40,629 nt of DNA, taken from contig NVWP01000043.1 in assembly GCA_002733705.1 (NCBI GenBank), forward strand, positions 1 through 40,629, in the 5' to 3' direction. Source of the stretch: Henriciella sp. (GTDB taxonomy: Bacteria > Pseudomonadota > Alphaproteobacteria > Caulobacterales > Hyphomonadaceae). Below the pieces are notes generated by a model. It searched no databases and was not told where the DNA came from. It saw only the letters and a program-made list of their open reading frames with translations. The translations under genes and the position numbers were made by a program. The number at the start of each line of letters is the position of its first letter. The first letter of the stretch is position 1. Below are positions 14,106 through 37,684 of this stretch, piece after piece.

Positions 14106-14747
14106 TCAGTGTGCGAGTTTCGGCTCCAGCGCGCCCTGTTCGTCCGCGACGCGGCGGCGGTAGCTGAGGGCTTCGGCGACGTGGACGCGCCTGACTCCGC
14201 CGGCGCCGTCGAGGTCTGCGATGGTGCGGGCGACCTTGAGGACGCGGTGATAGGCGCGGGCCGACAGGGCCAGCTTGGCGGCGGCGTCGGAAAGCAGGGC
14301 GCTCGCCGCCTCATCCGGAGAGGCAATATCAACGAGGCGGCGGGCCGAGGCGTCGGCATTGATGGCGCGGCGGCCTTCGTCAGGGTGGTGGTCCTGATAG
14401 CGTTCGGTCTGGATGTTGCGCGCCGCCGCAACGCGTCTGGCGGCTTCGGCCGTGCCTTCGGTTGGAGCGGGCAGGGCAAGGTCCATGGCTGTGACTGGCG
14501 GTGTGTCGTAGAAGAGGTCTATACGGTCGAAGAATGGCCCGGAGATGCGCGACTGATACTGGCGCGCGCAAGACGGGCCCCTCCGGCAGGCCCCGTCGCC
14601 GGGGCCCCCGCCGCAGCGGCAGGGGTTCATGGCCGCAATCAGCTGGAACCGGGCCGGGTATCGGACATGGCGGTTGGCGCGGGAGATAACGACGGCGCCA
14701 TCCTCCAGCGGCTGGCGCAGGCTGTCGAGAACCTGCGCGGGAAATTC
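14106..14747 (-). pseudogene. comM: comM (yifB), C-terminal fragment separated by insertion
   Basis: The last 210 codons of a Mg-chelatase-like AAA+ ATPase (YifB/ComM). The reading frame runs from the target site through AQVLDSLRQPLEDG, SRANRHVRYPARFQLIAAMNPC, the cysteine cluster CRCGGG...CRRGPSCARQY, SGPFFDRIDL, and the C-terminal Mg_chelatase_C helices ending in LEPKLAH. The N-terminal part lies at 19105-20052, on the other side of a 4.39-kb element. ComM is a hexameric branch-migration helicase that helps integrate DNA in natural transformation. The fragment has no promoter or start of its own apart from internal Met codons (MNPCRCG), so it is probably not expressed as a working protein. 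Confidence 0.92.
14740..14747. repeat. Target-site duplication, left copy
   Basis: GGAAATTC, identical to 19139-19146. Removing the element and one copy gives an uninterrupted comM frame (DELPEFPAQVLDSL). A ninth matching base exists (GGGAAATTC), but 8 bp leaves matched element ends and fits the IS1595 family. Confidence 0.9.
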
Positions 14748-14781
14748 CGGTATTATGGCGCAAACTCACCAAATATGGTGA
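14748..14781 (+). repeat. Left terminal inverted repeat of the element
   Basis: 34 bp that match the reverse complement of 19105-19138 at 33 positions; the only difference is the second base (CGGTATTATGG versus CAGTATTATGG). The inner 16 bp are the palindrome TCACC-N6-GGTGA. Bases 14763-14784 are also identical to 16199-16220 in front of the transposase gene. Confidence 0.93.
14766..14781. promoter_or_regulatory. Palindromic operator-like site 1 (in left terminal repeat)
   Basis: TCACCAAATATGGTGA, first of five copies of TCACC-N6-GGTGA inside the element. It lies within the left terminal repeat and directly abuts the stop codon of the 36-aa peptide gene. Confidence 0.75.
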
Positions 14782-14892
14782 TTATCCAAAAACGGCCATA
14801 AACCCCACGAAGCAAACGAAAAACAGCGCGACCCATAACAGGTCGCGCCATTTGAATTGCGGCGTGTAGTCGGGTTCGTCGTTCCAGCTCAT
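14782..14892 (-). CDS. 36-residue single-span membrane peptide (hypothetical)
   Basis: ATG at 14892 to TAA at 14784-14782. The N-terminal half is polar and aromatic (MSWNDEPDYTPQFKWRDL); the rest is one hydrophobic span (LWVALFFVCFVGFMAVFG). This predicts a tiny inner-membrane peptide, topology unknown. The stop codon touches the palindrome in the left terminal repeat, so the gene is packed right against the element end. No strong Shine-Dalgarno is visible (GAGGCAGAG lies too far upstream), so expression is uncertain. I do not recognise a family. It is divergent from the antitoxin gene and shares a 115-bp intergenic region with it. Confidence 0.45.
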   Translation of the reverse strand: MSWNDEPDYTPQFKWRDLLWVALFFVCFVGFMAVFG

Positions 14893-14921
14893 GAATACTG
14901 CTCTGCCTCAGTTCGCATTAA

Positions 14922-15008
14922 TGATTCGAAACACCGGACTCAGAGTCGCCGCTTTGTCAATACGTCCGCCCGTGCTAGCTTGTGATCCTTCAGGGAAGTG
15001 ATTCGAAA
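14922..15008 (+). promoter_or_regulatory. Putative promoter region of the Panacea toxin-antitoxin pair, with repeated TGATTCGAAA
   Basis: TGATTCGAAA occurs at 14922-14931 and again at 14999-15008, where it overlaps the antitoxin start. Between them TTGTCA (14954-14959) and TAGCTT (14976-14981) are 16 bp apart and could form a weak sigma-70-type promoter. The repeats bracket that promoter, as expected for an autoregulatory site, but this is a guess from position. Confidence 0.3.
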
Positions 15009-15562
15009 TGGGCCAACATATTCAGTTCGACAGAGAGAAGTTCAAAGACGCCATCTGGACGGTTGCATCTCTGTGCCCGCCCGAAGAGCTTGGAAACGTG
15101 AAGCTGCATAAGATCCTCTATTTTGCAGACATGCTAACGTTTCTGGATGAGGGTCGGCCCCTCACTGGTGTTGAATATCTCAAGCAGAAATTTGGCCCGA
15201 CCGCCCGATACCTTACAGCCGCAGTCGCTGAGCTGGCCGCTGAGGGGCTTCTGTCTGTTGAGGAAACTGATTATCACGGCTTCCTCAAAAAGACTTACGT
15301 GCCCCATGGCGCGCCGCGCATAACTCGTCTTTCGGAGGCAGAAATCACTCTTTTGAGGGAAGTATCTGAGTACGTCAGAGGTAAGAGCGCCAAGGAAATA
15401 AGCGAAATAAGCCATAATGCAGCTTGGGAGGCAGCCGAGCTAGGAGAGGTCATTCCATACACGACCGCTTTGAAATTAGCGCCAGTTGAGATTAAAGATT
15501 CTGATCGCCAGTGGGCGAAGGAGACCGCCCTAGCTTATGCGAATCAGGACTGGCCCTCGTAA
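15008..15562 (+). CDS. Panacea-domain antitoxin (SocA/DUF4065-like)
   Basis: 184 residues. The Panacea (SocA, DUF4065) domain spans about residues 25-150: VKLHKILYFADMLTF, then PLTGVEYLKQKFGPTARYL and an acidic helix AVAELAAEGLLSV, ending with SHNAAWEAAELGEVIPYTTAL. Panacea proteins act as antitoxins and neutralise many unrelated toxin types encoded beside them. GGGA lies about 11 nt before the ATG. The next gene starts inside this one (26-nt overlap), the usual compact antitoxin-toxin order. The pair is cargo of the IS1595-type element and could stabilise it in the host. Confidence 0.82.
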   Translation: MGQHIQFDREKFKDAIWTVASLCPPEELGNVKLHKILYFADMLTFLDEGRPLTGVEYLKQKFGPTARYLTAAVAELAAEGLLSVEETDYHGFLKKTYVPHGAPRITRLSEAEITLLREVSEYVRGKSAKEISEISHNAAWEAAELGEVIPYTTALKLAPVEIKDSDRQWAKETALAYANQDWPS

Positions 15563-15833
15563 CCCCTATCGAATTGTCCACGCTGAGTTTTTTGAGGCCG
15601 CGTGGTATCACCAAATTGAGGAACGGTGCCCTCAGGCACACGAAGTATTGGACCAGCTGGAATGGTCGCTTGAGCGCACCCCTTCGCTTGAGGGTGAACC
15701 GTGTGACGCCTTCGAAGGTCGCGACATAAGGTTTACAGTCACGCCTAGAACGCGCCGCCTTCCATCGCTGCGCTTTTTATTTGAGATCCGTGACCGGGAA
15801 GTAGCCATTTGGCACGTTTGTGAGGCGGACTAA
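15537..15833 (+). CDS. Small RelE/ParE-like protein, candidate toxin partner of the Panacea antitoxin
   Basis: 98 residues. The layout resembles RelE/ParE toxins: two N-terminal helices (AEFFEAAWYHQIEERCPQA, EVLDQLEWSLERTP), then strands, ending in the hairpin LPSLRFLFEIRDREVAIWHV that is typical of RelE-fold C-termini. RelE proteins cut mRNA on the ribosome; ParE proteins poison gyrase. Which applies cannot be told, since the catalytic residues are not obvious. The ATG at 15537 lies 26 nt inside the antitoxin gene, with AAGGAG about 13 nt upstream. Its stop overlaps the stop of the convergent DUF6471-like gene. Confidence 0.6.
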   Translation: MRIRTGPRNPYRIVHAEFFEAAWYHQIEERCPQAHEVLDQLEWSLERTPSLEGEPCDAFEGRDIRFTVTPRTRRLPSLRFLFEIRDREVAIWHVCEAD

Positions 15834-16123
15834 CCTACACCTAGTCGAGAAAAATTTGCTCCGATCGCATCCATGCACTGCAACAGAAATGCCGCCGAGA
15901 AGCTGCCCCGGCTAACCTTATTCTCAAGCCCGCGCGCCGTTATCTCTATGCCCATGCCATTGAGTTTCTCAGCAAGCGAGGCGTAATCGTTATCCGTCTT
16001 GGCCAGATACTCGCGAAGCAGCGCCTTGGCCTTGTCCTCATACTCGACATTTATAGGCAGCGACTTCCTGGCCTCCGGCTTCGGCGGCGGAGAACTCTTG
16101 CGTTTTGCGGTCGCGACGGCCAT
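15830..16123 (-). CDS. DUF6471-like small protein, candidate DNA-binding regulator of the element
   Basis: 97 residues. After a basic, proline-rich N-terminus (about 1-27) comes a helical domain resembling DUF6471: ALLREYLAKTDNDYASLAEKLNGMGIEI, then LENKVSRGSFSAAFLLQCMDAIG. The YASLAEKL...ENKVSRGSFSA pattern reads like a lambda-repressor-type helix-turn-helix (recognition helix around NKVSRG), though the family has no assigned function that I know of. The ATG at 16123 has GGAG 7 nt upstream; an in-frame TTG at 16135 is less likely. A TCACC-N6-GGTGA palindrome lies 20 bp upstream of the start, and a second copy covers the divergent transposase start region, suggesting that it represses itself and the transposase. 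Confidence 0.65.
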   Translation of the reverse strand: MAVATAKRKSSPPPKPEARKSLPINVEYEDKAKALLREYLAKTDNDYASLAEKLNGMGIEITARGLENKVSRGSFSAAFLLQCMDAIGANFSRLGVG

Positions 16124-16143
16124 TAGCGGCTCCAATCAAAAAA

Positions 16144-16159
16144 TCACCTGATTTGGTGA
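16144..16159. promoter_or_regulatory. Palindromic operator-like site 2 (before the DUF6471-like gene)
   Basis: TCACCTGATTTGGTGA, 20 bp upstream of the DUF6471-like start codon, in the divergent region shared with the transposase. Its position over the promoter/leader fits autoregulation. Confidence 0.72.
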
Positions 16160-16168
16160 AAGTAGCAC

Positions 16169-16197
16169 TTGACCGGGCGTAGGTGAAGGGGCATATT
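16169..16197 (+). promoter_or_regulatory. Putative transposase promoter
   Basis: TTGACC (16169-16174) and CATATT (16192-16197) are separated by 17 bp. Transcription would start at about 16204, inside the palindrome at 16202-16217, so binding there should block initiation. Confidence 0.5.
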
Positions 16198-16201
16198 CAA
16201 C

Positions 16202-16217
16202 TCACCAAATATGGTGA
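16202..16217. promoter_or_regulatory. Palindromic operator-like site 3 (transposase start region)
   Basis: TCACCAAATATGGTGA, the same sequence as site 1; identity with the left element end extends to 22 bp (16199-16220 = 14763-14784). The right arm GGTGAT lies 9 nt before the transposase ATG and matches the Shine-Dalgarno complement, so it may also be the ribosome-binding site. Confidence 0.75.
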
Positions 16218-16226
16218 TTACGAATT

Positions 16227-17186
16227 ATGGCTCAACACTTCCTCCTCTCCCCCGCCGCCAAGACGCTCTCGCTCGCGAAAGTGCTTCGCATGTCCGATGA
16301 CGAAGCCTCGCAAGCGTTTGCTAAGCTCCGCTGGGCTGACACGGATGGTGAGCCGGTCTGCCCTGAGTGCGGATGTCTTGAGCACTATAACCTGAAAAGC
16401 CGTCCGGTCTGGAAGTGCAAAGGCTGTGGCAAACAATTCTCGATCACGTCCGGCACCATCTTTCACAGCCGCAAGCTCAGCCTTCGCGACATTCTCGGCG
16501 CAATCGCCATCTTCGTGAACGGCGCCAAAGGCTACAGCGCGCTCCAGCTCTCCCGTGACCTCTGCTGCGATTACAAGGCGGCCTTCGTGCTGCTCCACAA
16601 GCTCCGCGAAGCAATAGGCCTTGCTCGCGACGAAGGCGCGCTCTCCGGTAACGTGGAGGTCGATGGCGCGTACTTCGGAGGCTATGTGAAGCCTGCCAAC
16701 CGCCGCGAAGATCGCAAGGATCGCCGCCGCAAAATTCACCAGTCCGGCAAGCGCCAAGTCGTTATCGCCATGCGCGAAACCAAAGGCCGCACGCTCACGG
16801 GTGTTGTCTCGAACGAAGCTGAGGGCGTGGCCCTGACCCGCGCCAACGTCCAAGCTGGCGCAACCGTCCATGCTGACGAGGCTGCTCATTGGGACAAGCT
16901 GGCCGCTCACTTCCCGATAAAGCGTATCAATCACCAGAAGGCTTACTCTCAGGACGGCGCGAACACCAACGCCGCTGAGAGCTTCTTTAGCCGCATCCGC
17001 CGCGCTGAAATCGGCACACACCATCATGTTGCTGGCAAGTACCTCGCTGCCTACGCAACCGAAATGGCATGGCGCGAAGATGCCCGCCGCACCGCCAACG
17101 GCTCGCAATTCGCTATGATAGTGAGCGCGGCGGCTATCGCTCCGAAGTCCGACGCATGGTCTGGATATTGGCAGGGTCGCAAATAG
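16227..17186 (+). CDS. IS1595-family (ISXO2-like) transposase
   Basis: 319 residues, full length. An N-terminal zinc ribbon, CPEC...CKGC at about residues 45-70, followed by KQFSITSGTIFHSRKLSL, is the hallmark of ISXO2-like transposases. The catalytic core shows Asp146 (VEVDGAYFGG), Asp217 (HADEAAHWD) and Asn248/Glu251 in NTNAAESFFSRIRRAEIG, so the acidic triad looks complete. It would cut at the 34-bp inverted repeats and make the 8-bp duplication seen in comM. The ATG at 16227 has GGTGAT at 9 nt as a ribosome-binding site, and that sequence is half of a palindrome also found in the element ends. Confidence 0.95.
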   Translation: MAQHFLLSPAAKTLSLAKVLRMSDDEASQAFAKLRWADTDGEPVCPECGCLEHYNLKSRPVWKCKGCGKQFSITSGTIFHSRKLSLRDILGAIAIFVNGAKGYSALQLSRDLCCDYKAAFVLLHKLREAIGLARDEGALSGNVEVDGAYFGGYVKPANRREDRKDRRRKIHQSGKRQVVIAMRETKGRTLTGVVSNEAEGVALTRANVQAGATVHADEAAHWDKLAAHFPIKRINHQKAYSQDGANTNAAESFFSRIRRAEIGTHHHVAGKYLAAYATEMAWREDARRTANGSQFAMIVSAAAIAPKSDAWSGYWQGRK

Positions 17187-17247
17187 CACCCAGAACAAAA
17201 GGGGCTTGTTCACAAAAACGCATAACAACTTTTCGCGCGTTAGGGTG

Positions 17248-17275
17248 TTGTCGCGCCCACGAAACCGTGTATAAG
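17248..17275 (+). promoter_or_regulatory. Putative promoter of the winged-helix-like cargo gene
   Basis: TTGTCG (17248-17253), 16-bp spacer, TATAAG (17270-17275). The predicted leader begins with a small hairpin (AATCGG-TAGGC-CCGATT, 17279-17295) directly before the ribosome-binding site, which could influence translation. Confidence 0.45.
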
Positions 17276-17316
17276 CAGAATCGGTAGGCCCGATTTTGGG
17301 CTTTTGGAGACCAGAA

Positions 17317-18138
17317 ATGGGCGAGAGCGAAACGAACGAACAAGAGGCTGCGGAAAATGCCTTCCGTCGCGCTCGGAGCAAAATCCAGTTTCCCTATACC
17401 GATCTGTCTAGGGCGGAGGAGTTGTGCCACGCCTTGCTTGAGATCGCGGGCCGCGCGGAAACTGAGCAGACACAGCTAGCCGTCAAGCTCGACATGTCCG
17501 CCAATGGGGGAACTTTCCGCGGGCGGCTGTCTGCGGCGAAGATGTTTGGGCTGATTGAGACACCCAGCAGCGGAGTGAGGCTCACGGGGCTAGGGCGCCA
17601 AATTCTGGAGCGGGACACCAAGGCGGCAGCGAGAGCGGAGGCCTTTACGAATGTGGAACTCTATTCCGCAATGTATGATCGCTACAATGGCTATTCGCTG
17701 CCGCCTGCTGCCGCTGTTGAGCGTCAAATGGTCGAACTTGGTGTTCCTCCAAAGCAGAAAGAGCGCGCCAGACAGGCCTTTGCTTCTTCTGCGGAGACGG
17801 CCGGATTTGTCGCGCCCAATGGACGGTTCTGCAAACCGGCGCTAGCGGCCCCTCTGCCCGACGAAAAGGAAGATTCAGAGACAACGTTCGGTGGGGGCGG
17901 CGGTGGTGGCTCCAATGATCAACGTGATCAAGCAGGATCAGCGGGGCGGGGTGGCGGCGATGCGCATAAACCAGCTCACCAAGATATGACTGATATGGCG
18001 CTTGAGTATCGACTGGTGGACCTGATTACAGAGGCGCATCAGAAAGATCCGCAAGTGGTAAGCCACATCATCGCAGTCATAACCTTCCTCAAAACAAAAG
18101 ACCTGTCAGGACCGGGTCAAAAGTCTGGAGAAGGCTGA
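17317..18138 (+). CDS. Winged-helix-like protein with Gly-rich linker (hypothetical cargo)
   Basis: 273 residues. The first 160 or so look like two small helical/winged-helix units: FPYTDLSRAEELCHALLEIAG...LAVKLDMSANGGTFRGRLSAAKMFGLIETPSSGVRLTGLGRQIL reads like a wHTH with a turn-and-wing ending in LTxLG, and PPAAAVERQMVELGVPPKQKERARQAFASSAETAGF follows. A low-complexity Gly-rich linker (about 195-225) leads to a short C-terminal helix (LEYRLVDLITEAHQKDP). I recognise the N-terminal type as widespread in bacteria but know no assigned function. The ATG at 17317 has GGAGA 6 nt upstream; an in-frame TTG at 17296 is less likely. It follows the transposase by 130 bp, with its own putative promoter. 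Confidence 0.8.
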   Translation: MGESETNEQEAAENAFRRARSKIQFPYTDLSRAEELCHALLEIAGRAETEQTQLAVKLDMSANGGTFRGRLSAAKMFGLIETPSSGVRLTGLGRQILERDTKAAARAEAFTNVELYSAMYDRYNGYSLPPAAAVERQMVELGVPPKQKERARQAFASSAETAGFVAPNGRFCKPALAAPLPDEKEDSETTFGGGGGGGSNDQRDQAGSAGRGGGDAHKPAHQDMTDMALEYRLVDLITEAHQKDPQVVSHIIAVITFLKTKDLSGPGQKSGEG

Positions 18139-18218
18139 TGGACCCAATATGACGACCGCTTCCTGGTCTAAGGGGGTCTAGCCACCCGCTTAGGTCAGCA
18201 GTCGCCATCTAGGGCGGC

Positions 18219-18246
18219 AGGGGGCGGGGCTTAGGCCTCGCCTCCA
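18219..18246. other. Strong GC-rich hairpin in the 244-bp gap after the winged-helix-like gene
   Basis: GGCGGGGC and GCCTCGCC pair around TTAG, extending to about 11 pairs with wobbles. No T-run follows, so it is not a standard terminator; it could be a transcript-end stabiliser. I see nothing else coding in 18139-18382 beyond ORFs of about 10 codons. Confidence 0.3.
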
Positions 18247-18284
18247 CCTATCCGGTCTCGGGAATGGTCCCGCGACCAAACGAT

Positions 18285-18359
18285 GACCGCTCAGCGGACA
18301 TCAAAGTAGTAAGTAGATGTATGATTCATCTCGGTGAATCCGTCAACCGCTGATCGGTC
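18285..18359. repeat. Near-perfect inverted repeat upstream of the 64-aa HTH-like gene
   Basis: GACCGCTCAGCGG at 18285-18297 and CCGCTGATCGGTC at 18347-18359 match as inverted copies at 12 of 13 positions, 49 bp apart. A TATGAT hexamer (18320-18325) that could be a -10 box sits between them. Possible binding site or looped regulatory element for the gene starting at 18383. Confidence 0.4.
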
Positions 18360-18382
18360 GCAGTCTTCAGAAAGGAAGACCG

Positions 18383-18577
18383 ATGAAAGACCCAGTGCTG
18401 ACACCGGAAATGGTTCCGGTCATCAAGTTGGCCCGCAAGCTGAAAATCCCGTACTCGTGGATTTCTGCTTACTACAACGGGCTGAACTTTGGACGCATTG
18501 CTGACGTGGTTAAGGGGCGTCGTTTCCCCACGATCCCGCCAGCAACGGCACTGCCAGCAGACTTTCCGTCTGCCTAG
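18383..18577 (+). CDS. 64-residue HTH-like small protein (hypothetical cargo)
   Basis: ATG at 18383 with a good Shine-Dalgarno (AAAGGAAG) about 5 nt upstream. The chain KLARKLKIPYSWISAYYNGLNFGRIADVVKGRRF reads like a homeodomain/resolvase-type HTH, with IPYSWISAYYNGL as the helix-turn and GRIADVVKGRRF as the basic recognition helix; this is inference. It ends in a Pro/Ala tail. A perfect terminator follows 12 bp after the stop, so it is a discrete transcription unit, and an inverted repeat lies upstream. I recognise no family. Confidence 0.65.
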   Translation: MKDPVLTPEMVPVIKLARKLKIPYSWISAYYNGLNFGRIADVVKGRRFPTIPPATALPADFPSA

Positions 18578-18588
18578 GTAAACGGAGA

Positions 18589-18615
18589 GGGTGGCGATCA
18601 TTCGCCACCCTTTTT
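18589..18615 (+). terminator. Rho-independent terminator of the 64-aa gene
   Basis: Perfect 9-bp stem GGGTGGCGA/TCGCCACCC with loop TCAT, then TTTTT. The loop contains the stop codon (TCA read as TGA) of the opposite-strand gene, so the two genes end in the same hairpin. Confidence 0.88.
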
Positions 18616-19068
18616 GATTGTCCAGAGCTTATAAGGCCCGTTCGCATCGTGCTGCGTCGTCCAGCCCTGATCCTCGATCAAGCCTTGGTTCACGCAGACC
18701 TTCACGCACGCGCCGATACGCTTCCTTATTGTGACCAGCGTGGCCTCGTCAGCCGACAGCCCGCGCTCTGCGGCCCATAGCTCCGTGATCTGGCGTGAGG
18801 TCATAGGCCCGTCCGCCTCGCGAAGCGTGGACAGGACGAAGCGTTTCACGCTGCCTTTCTCCGCGCGATGTTTGGTGACGTATTCCTTTATCGCGTAGGT
18901 GTCCGCGTTCGGATCGAACATGCGAATAGTCGCGTCCAAGTGGTCTATGTCCACGGTGAGCTTCTTGATCTCGGCGCGGTACTTTTCGCGGAGGTCTGAA
19001 AGCTCCTTGTGCTTCGCAACTAACCCAGAAACGGTATTAGGACGGTCGTATGAAATGGCATCGGTCAT
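18598..19068 (-). CDS. Coiled-coil/winged-helix protein (hypothetical cargo)
   Basis: 156 residues. An N-terminal coiled coil (about 12-55; KHKELSDLREKYRAEIKKLTVDIDHLDATIRMFDP) is followed by a winged-helix-like domain (about 75-150): VKRFVLSTLREADGPMTSRQITELWAAERGLSADEATLVTIRKRIGACVKVCVNQGLIE, then KLWTIKKGGE. I recognise this architecture as a common alphaproteobacterial hypothetical; its function is unknown to me. The ATG at 19068 and the GTG at 19074 are both possible starts. The TCACC-N6-GGTGA palindrome at 19071-19086 overlaps the GTG and lies 2 bp before the ATG, so translation may be leaderless or the site may double as a ribosome-binding site. Gene and operator touch the right element end. 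Confidence 0.78.
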   Translation of the reverse strand: MTDAISYDRPNTVSGLVAKHKELSDLREKYRAEIKKLTVDIDHLDATIRMFDPNADTYAIKEYVTKHRAEKGSVKRFVLSTLREADGPMTSRQITELWAAERGLSADEATLVTIRKRIGACVKVCVNQGLIEDQGWTTQHDANGPYKLWTIKKGGE

Positions 19069-19070
19069 AA

Positions 19071-19086
19071 TCACCGTATATGGTGA
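19071..19086. promoter_or_regulatory. Palindromic operator-like site 4 (start of the coiled-coil/wHTH gene)
   Basis: TCACCGTATATGGTGA. On the minus strand a TTGTTT-like -35 and a CATATA-like -10 could be drawn so that the palindrome covers the -10 region. It is 18 bp from site 5 in the right terminal repeat. Confidence 0.7.
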
Positions 19087-19104
19087 AACCGCAATAAAAA
19101 CAAG

Positions 19105-19120
19105 TCACCATATTTGGTGA
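19105..19120. promoter_or_regulatory. Palindromic operator-like site 5 (in right terminal repeat)
   Basis: TCACCATATTTGGTGA, the inverted counterpart of site 1. On the minus strand it supplies the TGA that ends the truncated ComM reading frame. Confidence 0.75.
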
Positions 19121-19138
19121 GTTTGCGCCATAATACTG
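19105..19138 (-). repeat. Right terminal inverted repeat of the element
   Basis: 34 bp, the inverted copy of 14748-14781 with one mismatch, ending at the target duplication 19139-19146. Confidence 0.93.
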
Positions 19139-19146
19139 GGAAATTC
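19139..19146. repeat. Target-site duplication, right copy
   Basis: GGAAATTC, identical to 14740-14747. It lies within the ComM codons for E-F-P just after the Walker B motif. Confidence 0.9.
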
Positions 19147-36175: not shown

Positions 36176-37684
36176 CTATTTGCGCTTCATGCTGCCAAGG
36201 ATGCCGCGCATTACATAGCGGGCGACATCGCGCGCCACCTGCCGGACGGCCGTCTTGACGGCCGCTTCGCTGACGGTCTGGCGGCGGGATGACGGTCTGC
36301 GCCGGGCTTTCTTTTTCTCAAGCTCATGCCGGGCACTTTCCTCCTGCCGGGCAAGGCGCTCTGCCTCCCGCGCGGCAGCTTCCTCCTTGGCGAGGAGGCG
36401 CTCATAGGCCGACTCCCGGTCGACCGGCTCATCATAGCGATGTGCGACCGGGCTGGCTTTCATCATCGCGGTTCGTTCACCGGCGGTGATGGGGCCCAGC
36501 TGTGAGGAAGGTGGACGAATGAGAGTGCGCTGGACCATGGAGGGCGCGGATTTCTCATCCAGCGTAGAGACGAGCGCCTCGCCGGTGCCAAGCTCTGTGA
36601 TTACCTGTTCAGTGTCGAAGGCCGGGTTCGGCCGGAAGCTCTCGGCGGCGGCATGGACCGACTTTCTTTCACTCGGCGTGTAGGCGCGCAAGGCATGCTG
36701 GATACGGTTGCCCAGCTGGGCCAGCACGCTGTCTGGTATGTCGCGCGGGTTCTGCGTGACGAAATAGATGCCGACCCCCTTGGACCGGATCAGACGGACA
36801 ACCTGTTCGATCTTTTCGATAAGCGCCTTGGGCGCGTCCTTGAAGAGGAGGTGAGCCTCATCGAAAAAGAAGACGAGCTTCGGTTTGTCCGGATCGCCGA
36901 TCTCGGGCAGCTGTTCGAACAGCTCTGACAGAAGCCAGAGCAGGAAGGTCGAATAGAGCTTCGGCGAGTTGATGAGCTCTGTGGCGTCCAGCACGTTGAC
37001 GATCCCGCGCCCGTCCGCAGCGGTGCGGATGAGATCGAACAGATCGAGCGCCGGTTCGCCGAAGAAGCGCTCGGCGCCCTCACGTTCGAGCCGCAGGAGG
37101 TCGCGCTGGATAGCGCCGAGCGAGGCGGGCGCGATATTGCCATAGCGCAGCGAAACATCGTCGCGCACCTCCTTCTCACCAAGATGGATGAGGAGTTTCT
37201 GGAGGTCCTTGAAGTCCAGAAGAAGCAGGTTCTCATCGTCGGCATATTCAAAGGCGACGGTCAGGACACCTTCCTGCGTCTCATTGAGGTCCAGAAGCCG
37301 GGCCAGGAGGGTCGGCCCCATTTCGGCGACGGTGGCGCGGACGGCATGGCCCTGGTCGGCGAAGACGTCCCAGAAGACCGCAGGCACGTCGTGGTAGGTA
37401 TATGTATCAAAGCCGATCTTCCGGACGCGCGACATGAACGCCTCATGCAGTTTGAAGGTCTCGCTGCCCGCCTTGGCTATGCCGGAAAGGTCGCCCTTCA
37501 CATCGGCGCAGAAGACCGGCACGCCCGCATTTGAGAACCCTTCGGCCATGATCTGCAGGGTGACGGTTTTGCCGGTCCCGGTCGCGCCTGCGATGATGCC
37601 GTGGCGATTGGCCTGCTTCAGCAGAAGGCTCTGGGGCTCGTTCTGCTCGGCCCCGCCGCCGCCGAGATATATCCGGTCATTCAT
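36176..37684 (-). CDS. HerA-like ATPase, YjgR/DUF853 family
   Basis: 502 residues. It begins [42 protein letters not shown], with Walker A GATGTGKT at about residues 33-40, then [22 protein letters not shown], and Walker [14 protein letters not shown] with [34 protein letters not shown]. This is the HerA/FtsK-type ATPase family DUF853 (YjgR). The C-terminal 80 residues are a charged coiled coil followed by a basic tail ([14 protein letters not shown]). It acts presumably on DNA or a protein complex; its role is not established. Confidence 0.9.

Follow-up and report, generated by a model that had tools for sequence, protein, structure and literature searches.

A palindrome at the gene starts and ends of an IS1595-family element varies in sequence with the DUF6471 protein of the element

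The window analysed here, i.e., the whole 40,629-bp stretch of contig NVWP01000043.1 from Henriciella sp., contains a transposable element of the IS1595 family. The element occupies positions 14748-19138 (4,391 bp), interrupts a comM-like gene and is flanked by an 8-bp target duplication. It carries five copies of the palindrome TCACC-N6-GGTGA, one within each end and three close to the starts of the genes for a DUF6471 protein, the transposase and a right-hand protein. We describe these sites, their conserved placement in related elements and their sequence, which changes together with the DUF6471 protein encoded in the same element. The ends, the palindromes and the genes next to them are as follows.

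14740-14747, no strand: target duplication, left copy GGAAATTC (flanking repeat match)
14748-14781, forward strand: left end, composed of the outer terminal inverted repeat (TIR) CGGTATTATGGCGCAAAC and the inner palindrome; the outer part resembles the ends of relatives
14766-14781, no strand: palindrome 1, left end, TCACCAAATATGGTGA; no gene is seen to start there
15830-16123, reverse strand: DUF6471 regulator gene (putative), divergent from the transposase gene (PF20075, 82.6 bits, cut-off 26.8)
16144-16159, no strand: palindrome 2, TCACCTGATTTGGTGA, close to the transcription start predicted for DUF6471
16159-16164, reverse strand: predicted DUF6471 -10 box TACTTT (own scoring, weak); the -35 box TTCACC (16182-16187) is also weak
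16169-16197, forward strand: predicted transposase promoter TTGACC-17-CATATT (consensus match only)
16202-16217, no strand: palindrome 3, TCACCAAATATGGTGA, directly after the predicted transposase -10 box
16227-17186, forward strand: IS1595-family transposase (PF12762, 146.2 bits; PF12760, 51.5 bits; NF033547, 148.6 bits)
18598-19068, reverse strand: right-hand gene, predicted to encode a long helix and a winged-helix-like domain; relatives occupy the same place in 50 of 55 elements
19071-19086, no strand: palindrome 4, TCACCGTATATGGTGA, 2 bp upstream of the right-hand ATG
19105-19120, no strand: palindrome 5, right end, TCACCATATTTGGTGA (pattern match)
19105-19138, reverse strand: right end, mirror image of the left end (32-bp perfect inverted repeat)
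19139-19146, no strand: target duplication, right copy GGAAATTC

The transposase passes the cut-offs for PF12762 (DDE_Tnp_IS1595; 27), PF12760 (N-terminal zinc ribbon; 25.4) and NF033547 (75). These two domains, the 8-bp duplication and the inverted repeats agree with the IS1595 family as it is characterized in an excerpt of PMC8101967. According to the same excerpt, a single transposase gene is a usual but not an obligatory trait of the family. Unlike the usual members, the element described here additionally has the divergent DUF6471 gene, the conserved right-hand gene and cargo.

An exact search of the window recovered the palindrome at five positions only (14766, 16144, 16202, 19071 and 19105), in full agreement with a preliminary description of this DNA. 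That description had placed two copies inside terminal repeats, which we refined to 32 bp without mismatch, and had reported that the left-end and transposase copies are identical over 22 bp; a sequence comparison bears this out, as the PF20075 match does the assignment of the DUF6471-like gene. If one mismatch is allowed, two extra copies appear, at 37176 and 40392 (1.10 expected in all). The spacers are rich in A/T: five of six positions in TGATTT and GTATAT and all six in the remaining three.

The chance expectation had been put at about 0.04. The mean number in 100 dinucleotide shuffles of the window was 0.01 and the largest number was 1. In the whole genome (3.37 Mb) the pattern occurs at 25 places, and its backward control at one. 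Five of the places are in the element, one (C126:869) is in the end of a second, related element, and 19 are elsewhere. These 19 copies correspond to approximately 0.23 per window length, so the earlier figure was too low for this genome, while the excess of sites in the window stands. The second element is represented by a remnant end at C126:851-892 (locus L005), where TCACCAAATAAGGTGA is retained. This remnant is inserted in an IS5-like transposase gene and is cut by an IS3-like element (family names assigned by eye). A host regulon was also considered and was rejected on inspection of two of the 19 other copies, namely those with the most AT-rich spacers. Both lie inside open reading frames (ORFs): C3:62302 in an ORF of 380 aa and C154:29843 in a mechanically called ORF of 104 aa.

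Palindrome 3 begins 4 bp past the predicted transposase -10 box. This promoter is weak when taken alone, since two promoter-like sites were found in the element against 2.0 in shuffles. The weak -10 box of the DUF6471 gene (own scoring) abuts the palindrome at 16144. The preliminary description had one copy overlapping the start of the right-hand gene. This holds for a possible GTG start; judging by the sequence, the ATG at 19066-19068, which is 2 bp beyond the palindrome, is the more likely start.

Relatives were collected as 28 loci chosen by their transposase (27 analysed) and 60 stretches, 49 of them found via the transposase and 11 via DUF6471. After addition of the window and removal of eight duplicates and one matchless locus, 79 loci (designated below by L numbers) were obtained, and in 72 of them the best-segment transposase identity is at least 50%. 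L061 was left out of the locus comparison, and L060 had no match at the script threshold. The sample excludes some partial transposase matches, e.g., G472, G489:C80, G461 and G364.

The DUF6471 gene is located directly upstream of the transposase gene and divergently from it in 65 of the 72 loci, window included. Among the 49 stretches from the order of the window that were picked by transposase alone, 48 have a DUF6471 gene in direct divergent position; the remaining one, L100, duplicates L040, where such a gene is present. The seven loci without a DUF6471 gene in direct position are the partial transposase matches L051, L058 and L142 (L142 does hold DUF6471) and L047-L050. Another small divergent protein is encoded in L047-L049; it scores above the cut-off of HTH_3 in L047 and L049 and below it in L048. 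L050 has a different small divergent protein with no Pfam match and three CTATC-N6-GATAG palindromes. The promoter palindromes of L047-L050 also differ, and from their sequences we read these four loci as cases of regulator replacement with changed operators.

Inverted repeats were definable in 55 of the 72 loci (TIR coordinates were accepted by eye). An outer end stretch (CGGCATTATGTAGCAAACGCACCA-like) is similar across these 55 elements, and in the clade of the window its last bases are also the beginning of the palindrome. All 28 exact copies of TCACC-N6-GGTGA within the 55 elements are at the left end, in the regulator/transposase region, at the start of the right-hand gene or at the right end. 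The 210 kb of element sequence contain no copy outside these places, and the 512 kb of flanking sequence contain one. Five exact sites are present in the window element, L093 and L094: at both ends, twice in the regulator/transposase region and at the start of the right-hand gene. L097 has four exact sites and a fifth with one change (TCATC-N6-GGTGA). L144 and L145 have GTGTC-N6-GACAC instead, and all eight copies of it are at both ends or in the regulator/transposase region (at the regulator and transposase starts). In both L144 and L145, the palindrome of the right end is shifted inwards by 3 bp relative to that of the left end. The placement of the 28 copies and the second palindrome favour the view, already expressed in the preliminary description, that a single DNA-binding protein serves gene starts and ends. 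Placement in relatives, together with the shuffle counts, leads us to reject a chance origin of the five sites, and the relatives indicate that the palindrome has a function.

It might be supposed that the palindrome exerts its effect at the RNA level, where a hairpin would conceal a ribosome-binding site. GGTGA is Shine-Dalgarno-like and precedes the transposase ATG by 9 nt. Pairing between the arms is possible, and two copies are listed as hairpins. We regard this as extremely improbable, given that the left-end copy is away from any gene start, that the GACAC arms of L144 and L145 are not Shine-Dalgarno-like and that the 6-bp spacing is preserved at the ends.

Two natural combinations of proteins are informative about the binder. 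L092 (= L035, Henriciella) has a transposase 90% identical and a right-hand protein 83% identical to those of the window, and its DUF6471 protein is only 36% identical (41% in core columns). The sites of L092 are of the CATC/GATG type, as in L099 and L037, whose DUF6471 proteins are 63% and 66% identical to that of L092. L093 (= L034) shows 86% identity in the transposase, 52% in the right-hand protein and 66-70% in DUF6471, and its sites are TCACC/GGTGA. This is a double dissociation for the right-hand protein: the sites differ in L092, where it is 83% identical, and are the same in L093, where it is 52% identical. Its candidacy as the common binder, suggested by the predicted winged-helix-like domain and by the palindrome directly upstream of its own gene, is thus very improbable.

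The trees point in the same direction. They are quick trees with SH-aLRT (Shimodaira-Hasegawa-like approximate likelihood ratio test) support only, and the DUF6471 tree was built on 74 columns and has many open forks. The transposase tree has L092 and the window as sisters (support 99) and requires two changes of site type. In the DUF6471 tree one change is sufficient, and the seven elements whose regulator region contains TCACC-N6-GGTGA are grouped together (support 98), with L092 outside this group. All seven have GLxNK in predicted helix 3 of DUF6471, and none of the 57 others does; the seven are one clade and are therefore not seven independent events. The preliminary description had proposed a search for the same palindrome beside DUF6471 genes of other genomes. 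In the regulator region it is found in these seven of 64 elements (window included) and is lacking in the other 57. For the same set of 64, similarity of the promoter region had a partial correlation of 0.48 with DUF6471 when the transposase was controlled for and of 0.14 in the reverse case; neither value was reached in 2,000 permutations.

The preliminary description had offered the DUF6471-like protein and the transposase as candidate binders. The transposase could bind all five sites if the palindrome were an extended end that had been copied to promoters for autoregulation. Such an origin would agree with the two copies inside the TIRs, with the overlap between the outer arm TCACC and the end stretch that many relatives share (83 of 110 ends have CACC) and with the weak correlation that is left given DUF6471 (0.14). 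However, the transposase of L092 is 90% identical, yet the promoter sites and the inner end arm differ; the correlation with DUF6471 given the transposase is the higher one; many elements with full TIRs carry other sequences at the regulator-region sites; and another divergent regulator in L047-L050 is accompanied by other promoter palindromes. We therefore consider binding of all five sites by the transposase quite unlikely. As far as sequence comparison can tell, the site type tracks DUF6471 and not the transposase or the right-hand protein, which favours DUF6471 of the two candidates.

An AlphaFold2 (AF2) model of the DUF6471 protein has four helices and appears to resemble POU-specific, XRE and C-protein folds. 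A search of its sequence profile against solved structures gave six matches (best E-value 0.43), none of them named a DNA-binding regulator. No significant similarity between DUF6471 and the transposase of the window was detected (best E-value 2.1). The predicted fold of DUF6471 may be similar to that of the lambda-repressor-like autoregulators 434 repressor, C.Esp1396I and HipB, to which it has no sequence match. These three proteins autoregulate from operators, and the 434 operator, ACAA-N6-TTGT, has the same 6-bp spacer. To our knowledge, no lambda-repressor-like autoregulator has been described at transposon ends.

We believe that the palindromes are probably operators of the DUF6471 protein of the element, which would repress its own gene, the transposase gene and the right-hand gene and would compete at the ends. 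DUF6471 would be a small lambda-repressor-like helix-turn-helix regulator that binds as a dimer. The gene-start operators lie on the predicted -10 boxes or immediately downstream of them, a position from which DUF6471 could repress all three genes. The end operator overlaps the inner edge (CACC) of the end stretch common to relatives, which presumably belongs to the transposase. DUF6471 bound at the ends would then compete with the transposase, and this would be a second, expression-independent brake on transposition. Competition is the simplest reading because the outer arm overlaps bases shared with the ends of relatives, and we infer it in preference to help in synapsis.

The sites near the promoters are more general than those at the ends. 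In the 100 bp before the transposase gene, the two halves share a 16-mer above the shuffle average in 60 of 64 elements (12.5 against 10.4). This is also the case in 34 of the 37 elements with known ends in which an end site is lacking (12.4 against 10.4). There are on average 1.02 exact 5+5 palindromes per regulator region against 0.13 in shuffles, and 43 of 64 elements have such palindromes. Promoter boxes may contribute to the repeat signal. For the DUF6471 gene, TTGTCA...TATGAT was found in 11 of 64 elements (own scoring), in most of them arranged back to back with a transposase box of the TTGACA type.

At the ends, CACC occupies the inner TIR edge in 83 of 110 cases. GRTG follows it after exactly 6 bases at 21 ends (14 elements); other spacings have 0-2 cases, except for eight at spacing 9, six of which are run-ons of spacing-6 sites. 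The 27 ends where the search found no CACC have no CACC-N6-GRTG either. In total, an end site was recognised in 16 of the 55 elements and none in 39, among which we count L092 (inner arm only) and L098 (left end, one change). The presence of end sites requires seven state changes on the transposase tree (hand-set labels, with L092 entered as one-ended). Judging by these sequences, sites in the regulator region are the general condition, and end sites are patchy. The same would apply to the end function, because 39 of 55 elements show no end site. The preliminary description had named ends kept without gene-start palindromes as a pattern that would contradict it. This pattern was not seen: the regulator region keeps repeated sites, and it is the ends that often have none.

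The ends resemble the promoters of their own element more than those of other elements (11.64 against 10.91 matches of 16 for the left end and 11.56 against 11.00 for the right one), and none of 20,000 permutations gave such an excess at either end. Taken singly, the likeness is clear for the clade of the window and L145 and is not outstanding in most distant elements. The ends of L092 are unexceptional when compared with its own promoters (14% and 4% of inner windows are as good), which slightly lowers our confidence, and those of L144 are not outstanding (3.5% and 12%).

The end copies might have no function at the ends at all. In that case the right copy would serve the right-hand gene as an operator located upstream, and its left counterpart would mirror it only through TIR identity. 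The two right copies do flank a possible weak promoter of this gene (read by eye and absent from the promoter scan), and one-sided end sites exist among relatives. Such mirroring seems unlikely to us, as the left copy is the one kept in five of seven one-sided elements (L096, L099, L040, L101 and L045), and in L096 and L099 no ORF of at least 60 aa starts at it.

The closest known mechanism, by analogy, appears to be that of InsA of IS1, which according to an excerpt of PMC12428005 acts both on its promoter, by repression, and at the two ends, in competition with the transposase. An element-encoded repressor is likewise proposed here for the transposase promoter and both ends, and palindromes are present at all these places in the window. 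In the same excerpt, InsA shares the DNA-binding domain of the transposase, whereas DUF6471 has no significant similarity to the transposase. Unlike InsA, DUF6471 also has its own divergent gene, its own operator and a site at a third gene. The repressor of phage Mu binds operators and has been proposed to help pair the transposon ends (excerpt of PMC3820752); it is homologous to the Mu transposase, according to the title of a reference there. The candidate operator described here differs in that it forms a palindrome of its own within the TIR, and regulator and transposase show no relationship in sequence. In our literature search, DUF6471 was not mentioned, and a query for a transposon-encoded helix-turn-helix repressor gave no match with most terms combined, while a looser one brought up, among others, work on CRISPR-associated Tn7-like systems that mentions the Xre family; the IS1595 family paper by Siguier (2009) was outside this search.

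The other genes of the element are the following.

15008-15562, forward strand: passenger gene, Panacea-domain (SocA-like) protein (PF13274, 54.9 bits, cut-off 25.7)
15537-15833, forward strand: passenger ORF, 98 aa, no match in family searches
17317-18138, forward strand: passenger ORF, 273 aa, no family above cut-off
18383-18577, forward strand: small ORF, 64 aa, no match in family searches

When the element and one copy of the duplication were removed in a script, an open frame of 523 codons resulted, a comM-like Mg-chelatase gene; PF01078 is divided between the comM-like halves on either side of the element. The cargo at 15008-15833 consists of the Panacea-domain gene and the overlapping downstream 98-aa ORF, and a pair in L099 looks alike by eye. 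The two are possibly a toxin-antitoxin pair. A defence-system library gave no match to six proteins of the window at an E-value of 0.01. In a PHROGs search with six proteins, the Panacea protein matches a family of unknown function (5.5e-12), and the right-hand protein has two weak matches only, a Mu Gam-like family (0.027) and an unknown family (0.061). The right-hand protein of the window has no name in Pfam or NCBIfam. An iterated profile detected a relative of its gene that starts close to the right end in 50 of 55 elements; L040 is an additional element with such a gene, located further inside. It is possibly an accessory transposition protein.

DUF6471 genes are not confined to such elements: an IS1595 transposase is within approximately 3 kb of only about half of the sampled DUF6471 loci (12 of 22; 10 of 25). 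They are also divergent beside TnsA-like genes of Tn7-like systems (L189, 1447-1776 and 2011-2871; L033), and the gap between the two genes in L189 has GCATCG/CGATAC-like half sites. In L182 (an Acinetobacter plasmid), DUF6471 has a short fragment of an IS1595-like transposase on one side and a DNA methyltransferase/helicase pair on the other, and it may also serve as a control protein there.

A broader picture can be offered only tentatively, and we hold it somewhat less likely than not. Two proteins would recognise the ends: the transposase would read the outer ~20 bp, and an exchangeable unrelated regulator would read the inner operator. An exchange of the regulator would re-code promoters and inner ends together, and the ends would have captured operators independently in different lineages. 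DUF6471 would then act as a modular switch through which expression, the availability of the ends and copy number are linked.

DUF6471, so far a family of unknown function, gains a testable role as an operator-binding regulator of transposons, and the analysis predicts its binding site and one specificity residue, the glycine at position 65 in predicted helix 3, where GATG-type proteins have asparagine. The natural recombinant and the two palindrome types point to inner ends that evolve with the regulator and not with the transposase. If this is true, dual control of transposition, through the dose of transposase and through access to the ends, extends beyond repressors that share the DNA-binding domain of the transposase.

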